Origin: Acidobacteriaceae bacterium KBS 83
GTDB taxonomy: Bacteria > Acidobacteriota > Terriglobia > Terriglobales > Acidobacteriaceae
DNA length: 64,000 nucleotides
Assembly (NCBI GenBank): GCA_000381585.1
Contig: KB906742.1
Span: 62,001-126,000, forward strand
Direction of reading: 5' to 3'
Shown here: positions 3,678 through 62,131 of the stretch, in pieces
How positions within the stretch are numbered: the first letter of the stretch is position 1
Layout: each line of letters starts with the position of its first letter
Program-made: the position numbers and the translations under genes
Notes under the pieces: generated by a model
Seen by the model: only the letters and a program-made list of their open reading frames with translations
The model's database searches: none
Told to the model about the DNA's origin: nothing

Positions 3678-3997
3678 TCATTTCCATCCCTCCTCTTCAT
3701 TCCGTCATCCGTTGCAAATAGAAAAAGCGCCCGACATGAGCGCCTTGAACTCTTCGGGCAATCTGTTCCAATCCAGCTTTTCTCCCAAAATTCCCACCTA
3801 ATTCACAATCCATATAGGGATAGTCAGAATGCAACTGACTGGTGTAGAGAGACTTAGAAAGGGGACAAAATGGTCAATGTGAGACAACGCTATAGACAAT
3901 ACAGGCGCTATCTAAGCTATTCCTATGGTCAAAGAGGGTTCACTCGGGATGAATCTTAAGACGGCTGTAGGCAATAGAGGGGCTATAGAACGTCTAT
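3678..3997. other. Gene-free stretch with two similar AT-richer blocks
   Basis: No gene is recognised. Two related blocks lie at 3888-3912 and 3963-3988; both contain GCTATAG/GCTGTAG, a CAATA core and a second GCTAT. They may be a duplicated regulatory or replication-associated site, but two copies are too few to call iterons. Confidence 0.3.
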
Positions 3998-4807
3998 CTA
4001 TGCGGAAAGTGTTTGTTCAGTCTGATCATCCTGGCTGGCTATCAGCAACTCTTCAAGAACTCCCCAAGAATTCCCCTGGGAGCCGGGGACGAGCACCCGC
4101 ATCTTGATTCCTTCGCGATGAAAGTGAGAGATGAGACCGAACACAACTTGGGTCTGATGAGCACATAATTCCTGGGCGAGCAGGAACATCAATTCCTGGT
4201 TTGTGGAAAGGTACAGCACAAAGGAAGAACGGAGATCTTCGTCAATCATCTTCCTGATCTCCCGGAATCGGGCGGCGGACTTTGCAGTCCGCTCATACTC
4301 CAACCCGAATGACCGCGGACCTTTTGCCGTGTCTACCGTCACCTGCGCGTCGTAGTCCTTCGTCGTCTCACCGTAGAAGGCAAGATTCTCTGACAGGACC
4401 TGCAATTCATTCTTCCAATTCTTCAGCCTTCCAGATTTAAGAAGTGTGAGACGGATGTCGTTGATCTCCGTCATGTGGAGGACCTCAGAGTCGCGAATCA
4501 CATTCCGGCTGAACGAGCCGAGGAACAGGAGACTGTAGCCCTTGAATTCAAGAAGTCCGAGGCCTTCATGGGTGATTGCGTAGACCGGGCATCCCAGTGT
4601 CTTCGTCTGCTTCAGTTGCTCGATAAACCCATTCCGCTCAAGGCGTCGAATCCGCCAGTAGGCATTGTTCCGGTTCGTTTCGATATTCAGAATCGGCAGC
4701 AAGCAATGCAACTGCTGCAGCGTGATGGCCCGAGAATCTCTGATCAGAAGCAGCAGAGGGATATCCCTTGATTCGTTGATAGAGATAGCGCCCTTTCTAT
4801 AGCGCAT
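3998..4807 (-). CDS. Replication-relaxation family protein
   Basis: A 269-residue protein resembling the Replic_Relax family (PF13814) of plasmids and integrative elements. It has an N-terminal winged helix (IPLLLLIRDSRAITLQQLHCL, then NNAYWRIRRLERNGFIEQL) ending YAITHEGLGLLEF. The region HMTEINDIRLTL is followed by a nuclease-like fold segment FGLEYERTAKSAARF. Members are found near conjugation genes and are thought to help origin processing; here this is inference. The start at 4807 is chosen because GGAGG lies seven bases upstream; it overlaps the preceding gene's stop by 11 bases, suggesting coupling. It is intact inside a decayed neighbourhood. Confidence 0.7.
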   Translation of the reverse strand: MRYRKGAISINESRDIPLLLLIRDSRAITLQQLHCLLPILNIETNRNNAYWRIRRLERNGFIEQLKQTKTLGCPVYAITHEGLGLLEFKGYSLLFLGSFSRNVIRDSEVLHMTEINDIRLTLLKSGRLKNWKNELQVLSENLAFYGETTKDYDAQVTVDTAKGPRSFGLEYERTAKSAARFREIRKMIDEDLRSSFVLYLSTNQELMFLLAQELCAHQTQVVFGLISHFHREGIKMRVLVPGSQGNSWGVLEELLIASQDDQTEQTLSA

Positions 4808-5355
4808 TCGCGACCTCCGCGGAATGAAGTTCAAGCTTTCCTGTCGCCGGCGAGATCTGCCAACGTCCCCTGTCCGTCTGCACCCAATGTCCCGATTGCA
4901 TCAGCAGCATGGCCTCGTACCGGTCCTGCTGTTTGCTGACTGCAATCGGCTGAAGCCCCGGAGATCTCCAATTCTTTCGGAATTCGATCGCGCCGTGCGT
5001 GTCTGGGTGCAAGGTTACGAGATACGCATCTGGGGCCTGACCTGTCCCGGGGAATTCGATGAGGAGCTGGACCTTGCCGTCATAAAGCCGGGGTGGCGCG
5101 GCCTGGAAGGTCTTGCCCGAGATGCGATCGACGAACTCCGGAATCGAAGCCGCTGGCCCGGTTGAACCGGATCATGCCGGGGTAGATTTGGCGATTGCGT
5201 AACCTGCGGCCGTACATCAGTCCGGTCGTATTGAAATACGCTGGCTTGCGCCGGAAACAGTAGGGATCTTCGATGTTCTTCGAATGCATGCCCCACCAGT
5301 GATGGTCAATGCACCGCCGTTTGGAACAGTTCGGTAGTTCTCGAAATGTACCCAT
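4797..5355 (-). pseudogene. Unidentified island protein, frameshifted
   Basis: The 5' part reads HHWWGMHSKNIEDPYCFRRK ... YPGMIRFNRASGFDS. A frameshift near 5135 then switches to EFVDRISGKTFQAAPPRLYD ... QLLIEFPGTGQAPDAYLVTL and on to the stop at 4797. Across the shift the protein would be about 180 residues. I do not recognise the family. Its stop overlaps the start of the replication-relaxation gene, so the two were probably cotranscribed and the protein may belong to the same replication or transfer module. The true N-terminus is unclear. Confidence 0.5.
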
Positions 5356-5453
5356 TTCGGTAACTTACCGACGGAATGAACGTCGAGCAGCGAACTTACT
5401 CAAACCCCGTTTTTCAGGCACTTCGTTATGCATGCTGGCTCCCCCAGCGATGG

Positions 5454-36544: not shown

Positions 36545-37039
36545 ATGATGGGCACAGTGAAGCACACCTGTTTCATTCTGGCCGCTCTCCTATTCGTTAC
36601 AGCCGGCTGCGACCGCGGCAGCCACCCCCGGCAAATGGGCCGCGTTGCCCCGGACTTCACAGTAACCGACGGAAACCGCAGCGTCCATCTGGCCGACTAC
36701 CGCGGGAAGATCGTGGTCCTGAATTTCTGGGCAACATGGTGTCTGCCCTGTATTGCTGAGTTGCCTTCGCTCACCGCCATGCAGCAGCAATTGCCGCAGG
36801 TCCAGGTGCTTGCGGTCAGCGTGGATGTGGATCAGGAGGCGTACCGGGATTATCTCGTCCAGCACAAGATCGGCCTGCTCACCATCGATGATCCCGCGCA
36901 TCGCGCTGCGGATCTTTACGGTACGTCCCGCTGGCCGGAGACGTATGTCATCGATCAGCACGGAATCATCCGCCGGAAATTTATCGGCGCGCAGGACTGG
37001 ACCAGCCCTGAGGTCCTGGAATACCTCCGCCGCCTGTAG
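36545..37039 (+). CDS. TlpA-like thioredoxin-fold lipoprotein
   Basis: A 164-residue protein with a lipoprotein signal (ILAALLFVTAGC), so anchored facing the periplasm. A thioredoxin fold has the active site NFWATWCLPCIAELPSL, and RWPETYVIDQHGIIRRKF contains the cis-Pro region. It probably reduces or isomerises disulfides, for example in cytochrome or copper-protein maturation. The start may be 36545 or the next codon (MM). It is followed by an HMA-like protein and MsrB, forming a thiol and metal-related patch. Confidence 0.88.
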   Translation: MMGTVKHTCFILAALLFVTAGCDRGSHPRQMGRVAPDFTVTDGNRSVHLADYRGKIVVLNFWATWCLPCIAELPSLTAMQQQLPQVQVLAVSVDVDQEAYRDYLVQHKIGLLTIDDPAHRAADLYGTSRWPETYVIDQHGIIRRKFIGAQDWTSPEVLEYLRRL

Positions 37040-37164
37040 CTCAGGCCGGGAGCATGGGCGTTCAAAAATGATCTATGATGCCGCTAGAGCGTCGTCAAAA
37101 GCCGGTCTCGCCGTCGCTCCTCAAGTCCAGCGATACATGCCTTTGCAATTGAGGGAAATGCTCG

Positions 37165-37449
37165 ATGACCAATGTCGATGTTCTATTCCGTTATGAGCAG
37201 CAGCCCTCCGAGGCCGCGATGTTCGCGCTGGGCAATCTGAAAGAGGTCTATGGCATCCGCCGCATCGAGATCGATCAGCCGGGCAAAACCATTCGTGTGG
37301 AATATGATGCGACGCGCCTGACGCCGGCAGTAGTGGCGAACTTGCTTCGCCGCGGAGGCATCAGCATCCTTGAAGAGGTGGCCCTGATCGCGCCGCAGAA
37401 TCCGATCGAGCACCCGGACGCCTCGCAGCCCCCCGCGGCTGCCAAGTAG
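37165..37449 (+). CDS. Ferredoxin-fold (HMA-like) small protein
   Basis: A 94-residue protein with the beta-alpha-beta pattern of heavy-metal-associated domains: VDVLFRYEQQPSEAAMFALG, then VYGIRRIEIDQPGKTIRVEY and TPAVVANLLRRGGISI. The CxxC metal site of classical HMA domains is absent, so metal binding is doubtful. The C-terminal tail is Pro/Ala-rich. Its position between TlpA-like and MsrB genes suggests a redox or metal context, but the function is unknown. Confidence 0.7.
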   Translation: MTNVDVLFRYEQQPSEAAMFALGNLKEVYGIRRIEIDQPGKTIRVEYDATRLTPAVVANLLRRGGISILEEVALIAPQNPIEHPDASQPPAAAK

Positions 37450-37548
37450 CGACCGCCTAATCCATTGTGCCTGGGCATTGGACTTGCCAGGGCGTAACCC
37501 ACGCGGGACTTCTGCGTCTTAGACTCGGACACGAGTGGAGCAAACCTT

Positions 37549-38157
37549 ATGTTCGAGTCACAACCATCGAGGGACCCCGGCTCACAGCGCGTGACGCGGC
37601 GCATATTTCTTTCCACCGGGATAGCGGCGGTAGGAGCGGCGCTACTCAGTCTGCGACATCCGCATCACGCGTTGGCTGACGAAGAGCCCTCGCATCCCGG
37701 CGAACCGGTCGTGATCGTGCTCTTTTCAGACGACGGGAAGCGTCTCCGGAAGGTCACGATGCCGAAAGTAGTGAAAAGTACGAGTGAATGGCAGAAGCAG
37801 CTTCCGCCGAACGTTTACGACATTGCCCGCCTTGCAGACACAGAGGTGGCTTATTCCGGCAGCCTGTGGAACCAGCACAAACGCGGTCTCTATCGATGCA
37901 TCTGCTGCGATACGGCACTATTCAACTCAGACACGAAGTTCGAGTCCGGCACGGGTTGGCCGAGCTTCTGGGCACCTATTGCGAAAGAGAACGTCGCCGA
38001 GCAACACGACACCACCCTGGGCATGGTGCGCACCGCCGTAAGCTGCAGGCTCTGCGACGCGCATTTGGGCCATGTGTTTACGGATGGTCCGCACCCTACG
38101 GGGCTTCGTTATTGCATGAACTCCGCGTCGCTTCGCTTCGCTCCCCACTCCGCCTGA
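37549..38157 (+). CDS. msrB: Peptide-methionine (R)-S-oxide reductase, exported
   Basis: A 202-residue protein. Residues 16-43 form a twin-arginine-type signal (VTRRIFLSTGIAAVGAALLS). The MsrB domain has two zinc CxxC pairs (YRCICCDTALF, CRLCDAHLGHVF) with SGTGWPSFW and the catalytic Cys in GLRYCMNSASLRF. It reduces methionine-R-sulfoxide in exported proteins. Tat export implies folding and zinc loading before transport. It converges on the DoxX gene of the buf operon. Confidence 0.93.
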   Translation: MFESQPSRDPGSQRVTRRIFLSTGIAAVGAALLSLRHPHHALADEEPSHPGEPVVIVLFSDDGKRLRKVTMPKVVKSTSEWQKQLPPNVYDIARLADTEVAYSGSLWNQHKRGLYRCICCDTALFNSDTKFESGTGWPSFWAPIAKENVAEQHDTTLGMVRTAVSCRLCDAHLGHVFTDGPHPTGLRYCMNSASLRFAPHSA

Positions 38158-38177: not shown

Positions 38178-38663
38178 TCAAGCTGCAGTTGACGCGGGCT
38201 CTAGGTCTTTGAGTCTCCGACGCACGAGCCGATCCAGCGCGAAGCATCCAGGACCAAAGATGAGGATAAGCAGCGACGCGAAGAGGAATGTGTAGGGGTC
38301 GGCGTTGTAAAACTTGCCTGGGTCGGAAAAGACGAAGTGCAGGGCCTCCGGGTCGGCGGTGATATAGGCGACGATCATGTCGAACGCCAGCAGCAGGCTG
38401 ATAAAGCGAGACGCCAGGCCGACGATGAGCAGCAAGCCACCGATGAACTCCAGCGACGAAACGAACACGACGTTGGCGCCGGGAAACGGGATATGGAGGC
38501 TCGCAAAGAATTCCGTTGCCTGCGGGATGTGATGCAGCCTGCCCCAGCCGGATTGGGCGAACTGCCAGCCCCAATAGAGCCGCACCAACAGCAGAAATGG
38601 GGACCGCAGAGAGGATGCAGCGCGGCGAAACTGCGCGTAGGCGCTAAGGATGCGCTCTCGCAT
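38178..38663 (-). CDS. DoxX-family membrane protein of the buf operon
   Basis: A 161-residue four-helix protein (LLLVRLYWGWQFAQSGWGRL; ANVVFVSSLEFIGGLLLIVG; SLLLAFDMIVAYITADPE; FLFASLLILIFGPGCFALD). DoxX proteins may accept quinone electrons at the membrane, and one is a regular partner of DUF692/DUF2063 bufferin operons. ATG 38663 lies two bases after the bufC stop, so they are cotranscribed; the upstream in-frame codon at 38720 would overlap bufC by 55 bases and is less likely. Confidence 0.88.
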   Translation of the reverse strand: MRERILSAYAQFRRAASSLRSPFLLLVRLYWGWQFAQSGWGRLHHIPQATEFFASLHIPFPGANVVFVSSLEFIGGLLLIVGLASRFISLLLAFDMIVAYITADPEALHFVFSDPGKFYNADPYTFLFASLLILIFGPGCFALDRLVRRRLKDLEPASTAA

Positions 38664-38665
38664 TC

Positions 38666-39583
38666 TCAGTTGACTCGCTTTCTGGCGGTGCGCCGGGCCG
38701 CTGCAGTCTTGTGGCGGCAAAACCAGCCCAGTTCAGCCCAGTTCGCAAACCACGCCTGCACCCGCGCGGGGCGCTGGTCTTCAGGAAGCGGCGACGATGT
38801 GAAGGCCTGATCTAGGGCCTCGCCGAGAGTGCTTCCCGCGTCGAGCGCTCGCAGGAGCAGGTATTCCTCGCGTTCGAGACGCTTGTAATAGACAGCGTTC
38901 TCGTAACGATGCACTCCTAGGTAGATGTCGCCGCGTTTGAGCGAGGCCGGCAGCCGCCGGCTGCGCAAATGCTTCGCGCTGGTGACAGCGTTGCTGGCCA
39001 CGCCCTGCGATGCCTGCCGGCGATGCACATCGATCACGAAATCGTCGACGGCGTCCAACAGGTGGAGCAGACGCAGATGAGGTTGCAGGGACAACTGTGA
39101 TTCGCCATCGAGCTGGCCGAGATCCGCTATGGTAAGTGCTCGCTCCGTTGCATTGTCGAAGGACTCGATGTATGCCCATTCCAGACGTACGACATCGAGA
39201 GCCAATTCAAGACGCTTCCCTGCGTACTGCGGATGCTCGAGCAGCCATGTTTCGAGGCGAGAGCCGAGGTTGCGCAGCGTGAACGATTGCGATGGGCAAT
39301 CCGTAAGATAGGCGCGGGTCAGTTTTTCAAAGGCCGCCTGCCCAACAACTGCACCGAGCCCTGGAAAGTCCTCCGCGAAGGCCGAGATGATGCGGAACCA
39401 ATACTGGCGATTGTAAATTTCAAGACGCTCAAAGGAGGTGAGCCGGTCGTTGGGCTTGATGAAGGCGGCAGCTTCCGCCATCATCGACCGGCCATTTCGT
39501 GCTTTCTGCTGCATGGTGTCGGTGCGGGTCAGCGGCAGCATAACTGCCTCGGCCATCCTGCGTTGCAGCTCGAGCAGCGTCAT
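38666..39583 (-). CDS. bufC: DUF2063 RiPP partner protein (BufC-type)
   Basis: A 305-residue protein. The N-terminal DUF2063 domain begins MTLLELQRRMAEAVMLPLTR and contains RLTSFERLEIYNRQYWFRII and DFPGLGAVVGQAAFEKLTRA. The C-terminal half resembles the RiPP recognition-like part (LGVHRYENAVYYKRLEREEY). Such proteins bind the precursor and activate the DUF692 enzyme in bufferin and related pathways. It overlaps bufB by ATGA and is followed directly by doxX. The Lys/Arg-rich tail (KTAAARRTARKRVN) is unconserved. Confidence 0.9.
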   Translation of the reverse strand: MTLLELQRRMAEAVMLPLTRTDTMQQKARNGRSMMAEAAAFIKPNDRLTSFERLEIYNRQYWFRIISAFAEDFPGLGAVVGQAAFEKLTRAYLTDCPSQSFTLRNLGSRLETWLLEHPQYAGKRLELALDVVRLEWAYIESFDNATERALTIADLGQLDGESQLSLQPHLRLLHLLDAVDDFVIDVHRRQASQGVASNAVTSAKHLRSRRLPASLKRGDIYLGVHRYENAVYYKRLEREEYLLLRALDAGSTLGEALDQAFTSSPLPEDQRPARVQAWFANWAELGWFCRHKTAAARRTARKRVN

Positions 39584-40476
39584 CGCGTCTCCAGCGGGTG
39601 CTCGCGTACCTTATTCAATGCGCCAGGAGGGAGGTTCGGAACAGTCGCGCGCTTCAGATAACGATTGGCTTTGAGCGCTTCTGCGTGTACCTCGTCGAAA
39701 GAGGGGATGTTATCGTCCCACTCCAAAAGGGTCGCCGTCGGGCCGCAGCGCTCGATGGCACGCGCATAGAGCGACCACACCGGATCGATGACCGGATGAT
39801 CGTGCGTGTCCAGAATGTACTTGCGGTATTTCGAGTGGCCCGCAATATGGATCTGCGCTACGCGCCAGCTGGGAACGCTGTTCACGTAGGTTAACGGATC
39901 GAAGCTGTGGTTTTGCGAGGACACGTAAATGTTGTTGACGTCCAACAGGATGCCGCAGTCCGCCGCTTCGACGACCTCGTTGAGAAACTCCCACTCGGCC
40001 ATCTCGCTCTCGTGGTATTCGGCATAGCTGCTTACGTTTTCGACGACAATGGGAATCTCAAGATAATCCTGCACCTGGCGAATGCGCTTCGCCGTCACTT
40101 TCACTGCCTCCCAGGTGTACGGGATCGGCAGCAGATCATGGGTGTAGCGGCCATCGACGCTGCCCCAGCAGAGATGGTCGGAGAGCCACGGCGTATTGGT
40201 GCGGCGAACCAGCGTCTTCAACCGCTTGAGGTGTTCGCGACTGAGCGGCTGCGCGGAGCCGAAGTACATCGATACCCCGTGCTGCACGACACGGTATTGA
40301 TCGAGTATCTGATCCAGCACCTGCAGTGGACGACCGCCGTCCACCATGTAGTTTTCGGAGATGATCTCGAACCAGTCGACGACCGGCTTCTTTTCGAAGA
40401 TGTGCTGATAGTGCGGAATCCTCAGTCCGATTCCAACACCATATTCCGTGAATCCATTGAAACGATTGGCAGGCAT
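39580..40476 (-). CDS. bufB: DUF692 multinuclear iron oxidase (BufB-type)
   Basis: A 298-residue TIM-barrel enzyme of the MNIO (DUF692) family. Likely metal ligands are visible in QHGVSMYFGSAQPL, WLSDHLCWGSVDG, PIVVENVSSYAEYH, LLDVNNIYVSS and QIHIAGHSKYR, with DTHDHPV near the end. These iron enzymes oxidise cysteines of a partner peptide, making thiooxazoles in bufferins, or other Cys modifications in related pathways. It follows the six-cysteine precursor gene and overlaps bufC. Length and motifs are normal, so activity is expected. Confidence 0.93.
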   Translation of the reverse strand: MPANRFNGFTEYGVGIGLRIPHYQHIFEKKPVVDWFEIISENYMVDGGRPLQVLDQILDQYRVVQHGVSMYFGSAQPLSREHLKRLKTLVRRTNTPWLSDHLCWGSVDGRYTHDLLPIPYTWEAVKVTAKRIRQVQDYLEIPIVVENVSSYAEYHESEMAEWEFLNEVVEAADCGILLDVNNIYVSSQNHSFDPLTYVNSVPSWRVAQIHIAGHSKYRKYILDTHDHPVIDPVWSLYARAIERCGPTATLLEWDDNIPSFDEVHAEALKANRYLKRATVPNLPPGALNKVREHPLETR

Positions 40477-40543
40477 CTGTCCGTTCCCGTCAACGGCACT
40501 CGGTTCAGGTCATGTGCAGCAGACATGATCGATGGGGAAAGTT

Positions 40544-40576
40544 CGCGAGGGCCCCTTCCACGAGGCGGCCCTCGCG
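40544..40576 (-). terminator. Intra-operon hairpin between precursor and bufB
   Basis: CGCGAGGGCC pairs with GGCCCTCGCG around a 13-base loop, starting 11 bases after the precursor stop. No T tract follows, so it is more likely an attenuator or mRNA-stabilising stem that raises precursor over enzyme levels. Confidence 0.6.
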
Positions 40577-40586
40577 CAGGTGAAGC

Positions 40587-40901
40587 TTATGCATCCGGCA
40601 TCTTGGAGCCGTCGGTGGCGCAGCCGCCCTTGCCCTTGCAGCTGTTCTTGCCCTTGCAGCCGTTGTCGCTCGCCTTGCATCCGCCCTGGCCCTTACAGTC
40701 GTTCTTGCCTTTACAGGAATGCTTGCCAGTGTCCTGAAAATTGCTCTTCAGGTGCACAGCGGTGCCGACGTTCGAGTTTGCGCTCACGCTGGCCTGGCCG
40801 TTCGACTGTGCGGCCGGCTGAGCGTTGAGGCGGGCCGAGGTGCCACCGAACAAGCCGGTCACAGCTGCAGTCAGAATGAGAGTCTTGACGCTATTGTTCA
40901 T
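40587..40901 (-). CDS. bufA: Bufferin-like cysteine-rich RiPP precursor
   Basis: A 104-residue precursor. Residues 1-27 are a Sec signal peptide (LILTAAVTGLFGG...LNA). A Ser/Asn/Gln-rich linker to about residue 60 leads to six cysteines at 63, 69, 75, 82, 88 and 94. They lie in two copies of one unit: CKGKNDCKGQGGC and CKGKNSCKGKGGC, joined by KASDNG. This fits the DUF2282/BufA type of periplasmic peptides whose cysteines are oxidised by DUF692 enzymes to chelate copper. RBS AAGGAAGG lies 9 bases before the ATG. A palindrome AACCTCAGGTT lies 35-45 bases upstream and could be a regulatory site. Confidence 0.88.
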   Translation of the reverse strand: MNNSVKTLILTAAVTGLFGGTSARLNAQPAAQSNGQASVSANSNVGTAVHLKSNFQDTGKHSCKGKNDCKGQGGCKASDNGCKGKNSCKGKGGCATDGSKMPDA

Positions 40902-41219
40902 TGCGAGAAACCTTCCTTATTGAGTTCCTCAGATCGTTCAACCTGAGGTTGGGACCATCCGGATTACGTTGTATACCGCGTTTGCGGATTGCAACTCCTT
41001 CACAAAGAACCGAAAGCAACCCGCCAGCGCCCGTCGCCTCTTGAGGAGGTCAACAGCCACCAGCACTCGGTTAGAGTCACCGGGCAGAGGGAGGTTACAG
41101 CGCAACAGTGGCCTTTGCATAGGAAATCCTGCATCTTTTGACAGGATCTACACGTGCCGGAACCGCTCGATGGTGGCCTCGTCACGTAATACGTTGCTCT
41201 GACATTCCGTCGTCCGGGA
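40902..41219. other. Promoter region of the buf operon
   Basis: No gene is recognised. The palindrome AACCTCAGGTT at about 40939-40949 and a TATACA box at about 40971 precede the precursor gene; no convincing -35 element is seen. Confidence 0.35.
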
Positions 41220-61905: not shown

Positions 61906-62131
61906 TGACGATTCACGATGGGCTGAACAGACGGGAGTCCCTCCTTGGCCTCAACGCAATATTCAGCGTCGCATGACCATCCGTCATAGTGCAGCGCTGG
62001 TATCCGCTGCCCTTTCCTGAAGTCCGTACCGTTCGGCTACCCTCCAGAAGTCCTTGCCACATTGGGCGCTGGCTAGTACATCACGAAAGGCGCATGACCT
62101 AGAGAGTTGAGGGAAAGATCGAAGGCTGACT

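Follow-up and report, generated by a model that had tools for sequence, protein, structure and literature searches.

A Buf2-like bufferin-type operon with a two-unit cysteine precursor in Acidobacteriaceae bacterium KBS 83

Experiments on bufferin-type peptides have mostly been carried out in Pseudomonadota. A four-gene cluster in Acidobacteriaceae bacterium KBS 83, predicted from its sequence to be a bufferin-type operon with an internally duplicated precursor, raises the question of whether an acidobacterium encodes such a peptide and how far its precursor departs from the known plan. Within the window, here the whole 64,000-nucleotide stretch of contig KB906742.1 that was analyzed (positions 62,001 to 126,000), a check of open reading frames and profiles identified the genes in the order precursor-MNIO-DUF2063-DoxX, all on the minus strand, together with the following features:

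41071..41099, minus strand: promoter-like element TGTAACC-N17-TCTAA, with -35 at 41099-41093 and -10 at 41075-41071 (motif search)
40587..40901, minus strand: bufA-like precursor, 104 aa, with a Sec-type N-terminus and six Cys (ORF; NF050166 match; dN/dS)
40821..40901, minus strand: putative signal peptide, residues 1-27, ending ...RLNA before Q (judged by eye from the sequence)
40620..40715, minus strand: Cys core C63-C94, two CKGxNxCKGxGGC units (pattern kept in 55 six-Cys Terriglobales precursors)
40544..40576, minus strand: stem-loop in the bufA-bufB gap, 13 bp, -27 kcal/mol (folding; counterparts in most relatives)
39580..40476, minus strand: bufB, MNIO (DUF692) maturase, 298 aa (PF05114, NF050167, 3bww)
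38666..39583, minus strand: bufC, DUF2063 partner with an RRE-like domain, 305 aa (PF09836; AlphaFold2 model)
38178..38720, minus strand: DoxX/HvfX-like membrane protein, probable ATG start at 38663 (PF07681, NF050144)

The ORFs and Pfam matches bore out the predicted layout, namely a secreted-type precursor of 104 residues whose six cysteines fall in two copies of one unit (CKGKNDCKGQGGC / CKGKNSCKGKGGC), followed on the same strand by DUF692, DUF2063 and DoxX genes. The cysteines lie at residues 63/69/75/82/88/94 (spacing 6,6,7,6,6). The gene ends, described as overlapping or touching, do overlap between bufB and bufC, the sole such pair (4 nt), whereas bufA and bufB are separated by a 110-nt gap that contains the stem-loop, and the DoxX gene probably starts at ATG 38663, 2 nt past the bufC stop. 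The genome holds a single MNIO gene. Flanking MsrB, TlpA, HMA and glycosyltransferase genes were rejected as cluster members, being conserved in the same-genus genome only. Beside the operon, positions 36545-37449 (+) encode a thioredoxin-fold protein of the TlpA/ResA-like kind, along with a small protein whose HMA-like match is weak, again seen in the same genus only.

The precursor is Cys-rich and basic, with lysine following five of its cysteines and alanine following C94. Its match to the BufA2 model NF050166 (32.2 bits, E 9e-8) does not reach the cut-off of 60 bits, and the Pfam profile search gave no match to PF10048 (DUF2282); a DUF7640 match below cut-off was set aside. Buf1 (DUF2282) precursors such as that of Caulobacter (PMC3511200) are marked by a PF10048 match and four Cys, in contrast to the six Cys and missing DUF2282 match observed here. 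The features that mark Buf2, a signal peptide (putative and judged by eye in this case), six conserved Cys and adjoining MNIO and DUF2063 genes, are all present. Comparison with a same-genus genome (L327) gave dN 0.029 against dS 0.337 for bufA (dN/dS about 0.09), indicating that it is a real coding gene.

BufA2-model matches were found in 63 of 249 Terriglobales genomes, none of the 249 above cut-off, and 60 of these loci were fetched for neighborhood comparison. The precursor adjoins a BufB homologue in every one (60/60), so that a product without homologues beside DUF692 genes, the outcome that would have spoken against the original prediction, was not encountered. BufC is present in 58 of the 60, the remaining two lying at contig ends, and DoxX lies within the fetched stretch in 53. 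Alignment of the acidobacterial homologues confirmed conservation of the Cys core, with KH(S/A)CKGxNxCKGxGGCKxxDNGCKGKNSCKGKGGCxT near-invariant across the 55 six-Cys Terriglobales precursors; the linker that joins this core to the signal peptide is variable. Six other Terriglobales loci carry fewer cysteines, either five (L079 and L082, C4 lost) or four (L083 and L085-L087, C3 and C4 lost); the middle precursor cysteines are therefore dispensable, and these relatives offer natural variants for probing which Cys matter. In one locus (L048, G217), two tandem bufA-like precursors (3764-4063 and 5145-5438) stand ahead of one MNIO, and a Verrucomicrobiales locus (L130) likewise has two precursors.

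The BufB product matched PF05114 with 368 bits, NF050167 (BufB) with 357.9 bits, over the curated cut-off of 310, and the structure 3bww (E 7.5e-50). It reads EWDD where 3bww has ERDF, placing Asp directly after the E-W-D motif, as in 106 of 114 two-unit systems; this substitution to Asp is reported as a signature of Cys-Lys MNIOs (PMC12668002). A quick maximum-likelihood tree of 107 BufB sequences, with SH-aLRT support and without bootstrap, grouped the window BufB with Terriglobia, Verrucomicrobiota and Melainabacteria systems on a long stem (SH-aLRT 100). Nearly all members of this clade have two-unit precursors or derivatives thereof, and it is separate from both the canonical clade and the four-unit branches, the latter also holding other Acidobacteriota; precursor type (canonical, two-unit or four-unit) thus tracks MNIO clade. 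The BufC product scored 52.7 bits against PF09836 (cut-off 27.2) and fell under the HvfC cut-off. In a fold comparison with the PDB, its AlphaFold2 model, built from 35 homologues (pLDDT 91.7), came closest to one of the chains in the TglHI complex (E 2.5e-5), and TbiB1 and PqqD, both RRE proteins, matched less well; the predicted order of DUF2063 followed by an RRE-type domain fits a DUF2063-RRE (PME type 1) partner. DoxX matched PF07681 (63.9 bits, cut-off 23.6) and, under its cut-off of 80, NF050144 (HvfX; 52.8 bits).

The doubling had been read as giving a "doubled chelator" in this acidobacterial version, but it is not distinctive of the organism: given that two-unit precursors recur in the order (63/249 genomes) and in other phyla, the "duplication" is the ordinary plan of the branch. 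The one-unit CKGxNxCKGxGGC DNA pattern matched at least 120 stretches, counts that are not frequencies, and among the matches listed are Acidobacteriota, Verrucomicrobiota, Planctomycetota, Myxococcota, Melainabacteria, Fibrobacterota and others, with precursors of two units (6 Cys), four (12 Cys) and six (18 Cys). The difference from canonical BufA2, represented by plasmid members and members from other Acidobacteriota, lies in the position of C6. Spacing from C1 to C5 is similar; in canonical BufA2 the last CKGxG is directly followed by an aromatic residue, with C6 about a dozen residues further on, in a TxxxC segment, whereas in the window precursor C6 sits at +6 (CKGKGGC) and the two halves are near-perfect copies. 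Among Buf2 precursors, 90% have six conserved Cys and the rest twelve (PMC12452194). The locus shares with Buf2 (BufA2-BufB-BufC; NF050166, NF050167; PMC12452194) its gene order, Sec-type N-terminus, six Cys, Cys-Lys-Gly context, a BufB over the equivalog cut-off and a cluster without a sigma gene; it differs in a precursor under the BufA2 cut-off, and is best filed as a Buf2-like variant, not as a BufA2 equivalog. The four-unit (12-Cys) precursors of Planctomycetota, Vicinamibacteria and others also place the CKGxNxCKGxGGC unit beside an MNIO, but have twice the units, and their MNIOs fall on other tree branches. Lys-Cys captophorins (fontiphorin, oxazolin/HvfA; PMC12668002) likewise combine an MNIO and PME1 (DUF2063-RRE) with a repeated Cys motif and DoxX/HvfX, but their repeats read EGKCG and their selectivity site is Phe, where the window has Cys-Lys repeats and Asp.

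A tblastn search of the precursor against plasmids returned no match, probably owing to the low-complexity filter, and none was found in the viral contigs searched. Three loci (L114, L140 and L194) encode CKGSNxCKGEGGCGF-motif proteins of up to about 690 aa with no obvious signal peptide, and those of L114 and L140 adjoin MNIO and DUF2063 genes; all three are possibly protein-sized MNIO substrates or enzymes. A short exported CNGCKGC-repeat peptide is encoded in Legionella rubrilucens (L138, 5134-5424, minus strand), with no MNIO detected in that stretch.

Motif discovery upstream of 56 bufA genes yielded CTGTAACCTTT (log-likelihood 215 vs 35 in shuffled sequence). The pattern [CT]TGT[AT]ACC occurs in 33 of 57 bufA upstream regions against a shuffled mean of 0.9, with a second element, TCTAA or ACTCxTA, downstream at a nearly fixed distance. 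The window's TGTAACC-N17-TCTAA (41099-41071) is kept in the same-genus genome and, within its own genome of 6.25 Mb, has no second exact match. Across 200 family genomes, 27 exact matches were found, fewer than with the reversed-pattern control; the pattern is therefore not enriched genome-wide, and it is the positions of the matches that carry the argument. Exact matches stand upstream of bufA at six loci, the window included, and also precede six lone doxX genes, one Oxidored_molyb (MsrP/YedY-like) gene, one ECF sigma gene and one thioredoxin-like gene. The lone doxX genes (L245, L248, L251, L263, L267 and L269) are preceded by TGTAACC-N17-TCTAACG, the same element as at bufA. The element was not seen in Verrucomicrobiota (0/24), and scans for sigma-70 promoters and classical terminators found no more than about chance. 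Upstream of the exported MsrB gene (37549-38157), a GTAACC-N17-TCTTA site lies at 37493-37521 (+), 28 nt away; its GTAACC and CGTC parts are kept in L327, and 1.6 such matches are expected by chance in the window.

The genome that contains the window also has an ECF sigma gene preceded, at a distance of 6 nt, by a site with two mismatches; on the strength of these sequence comparisons, its product is a candidate regulator of the buf operon. Its closest orthologues (at least 67% identity) all occur in buf-operon genomes (12/12; Fisher p 3e-8, relatedness ignored), and most orthologues with a parsable start carry the same element near it. More distant orthologues are also found in genomes without buf, and absences in this search weigh little because 11 candidates per genome were scored. 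Caulobacter sigF, which recognizes GTAACC-N16-CGAA, controls DUF2282-DUF692-DUF2063, DoxX and YedY genes (PMC3511200). The likeness lies in the GTAACC-type -35 and in doxX and MsrP/YedY genes sharing the promoter; the difference lies in the -10, TCTAA here versus CGAA, and in NrsF anti-sigma, for which this genome gave no real match. A conserved stress-type promoter, apparently common to other stress genes, is the less expected part of the locus. In the relatives, the bufA-bufB gap contains a stem-loop rich in GC (medians of 13 bp and z -3.1, with 40/55 below -2), conserved in position in most of them and unrelated in sequence between genera; that of the window is individually weak (z -1.9). 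Its likely role would be to terminate part of the transcripts or to protect the 3' end of bufA.

Collectively, the BufB equivalog score, BufA2-model similarity, modeled DUF2063 and RRE-like partner, DoxX and 60/60 linkage uphold the prediction of a bufferin-type operon, the precursor score under the BufA2 cut-off being the point against; the core Cys conserved while the linker varies and the promoter common to doxX and MsrP-like genes are further supports. We consider it probable that this is a Buf2-like (Cys-Lys type) bufferin/captophorin operon, with periplasmic Cu(I) buffering as its predicted role. By analogy with characterized relatives, the RRE-like domain of BufC would hold BufA during modification, and the iron enzyme BufB would oxidize cysteines, which mostly stand in Cys-Lys-Gly context, yielding 5-thiooxazoles; the modified peptide would be exported by Sec, bind Cu(I) in the periplasm and protect the cell against copper or related stress, with DoxX as a putative accessory envelope protein. 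Transcription may proceed from the ECF-sigma-type promoter through a sigma factor whose gene lies elsewhere, while the stem-loop that follows bufA may let precursor mRNA exceed enzyme mRNA. 5-Thiooxazole is present in characterized MNIO-PME1 products, which generally bind Cu (PMC12668002), and under copper stress bufferins act in the periplasm (PMC12452194). The plasmid relatives in P. putida and P. mandelii have as neighbors either an oxidase for copper resistance or a MerR regulator together with a metal P-type ATPase. Against the copper-buffer reading count the lack of a clear copper gene in the immediate operon neighborhood, the flanking genes, which are kept in the same-genus genome and not outside the genus, and a related conserved Microbulbifer cluster that is not induced by copper (PMC12538549).

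An alternative scenario, to which we give somewhat less than even weight, is that the cysteines are modified and the peptide is meant for a stress or metal other than copper (gold, chromate, mercury, or reactive species of sulfur or chlorine). MerC-Buf2 fusions (PMC12452194), gold-induced GIG operons (PMC5413113), sigF genes under chromium (PMC3511200), the promoter element before relatives' doxX, MsrP-like and thioredoxin-like genes, and the MsrB and TlpA-like genes adjoining the operon would all be consistent with this; however, characterized 5-thiooxazole peptides generally bind copper (PMC12668002, PMC12538549). Whether the operon's enzyme modifies no more than some of the cysteines is evenly balanced: modification may be limited to a subset, such as those in CKG context, with the others in a disulfide or as metal-binding thiols, in line with the outer Cys of Buf1 forming a disulfide (PMC12452194), with C94 being followed by Ala where the other five precede Lys, and with the relatives lacking middle Cys. 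Since C1 and C6 sit in repeat context here, unlike in canonical BufA2, a Buf1-like pairing need not hold. That the precursor is an unmodified metallothionein-like or disulfide peptide, with the MNIO acting elsewhere, is very improbable; its Cys-rich, basic composition and the published Buf2 precursors without MNIO linkage (PMC12452194) would agree with this, but the MNIO linkage in all 60 loci and the tracking of MNIO clade by precursor type argue against it.

The bufferin-type operon is thus real and ordinary for its lineage, with the promoter and stem-loop as its points of interest. We tentatively propose, at rather less than even confidence, that Terriglobia and Verrucomicrobiota hold a separate, repeat-built captophorin branch whose cysteines all fall within one and the same repeat and could each become a thiooxazole. 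In Terriglobia, under this proposal, an autoregulated ECF sigma may activate the system in trans, and its regulon, consisting of the buf operon, doxX and an MsrP-like gene, would parallel that of Caulobacter sigF, though sigma, -10 element and precursor differ. The two-unit precursor provides a simple substrate for how an MNIO works along repeats, and the promoter motif makes bufferin regulation in soil Acidobacteriota directly testable, including whether two distant phyla both have the same stress set of buf, doxX and MsrP under the control of an ECF sigma.
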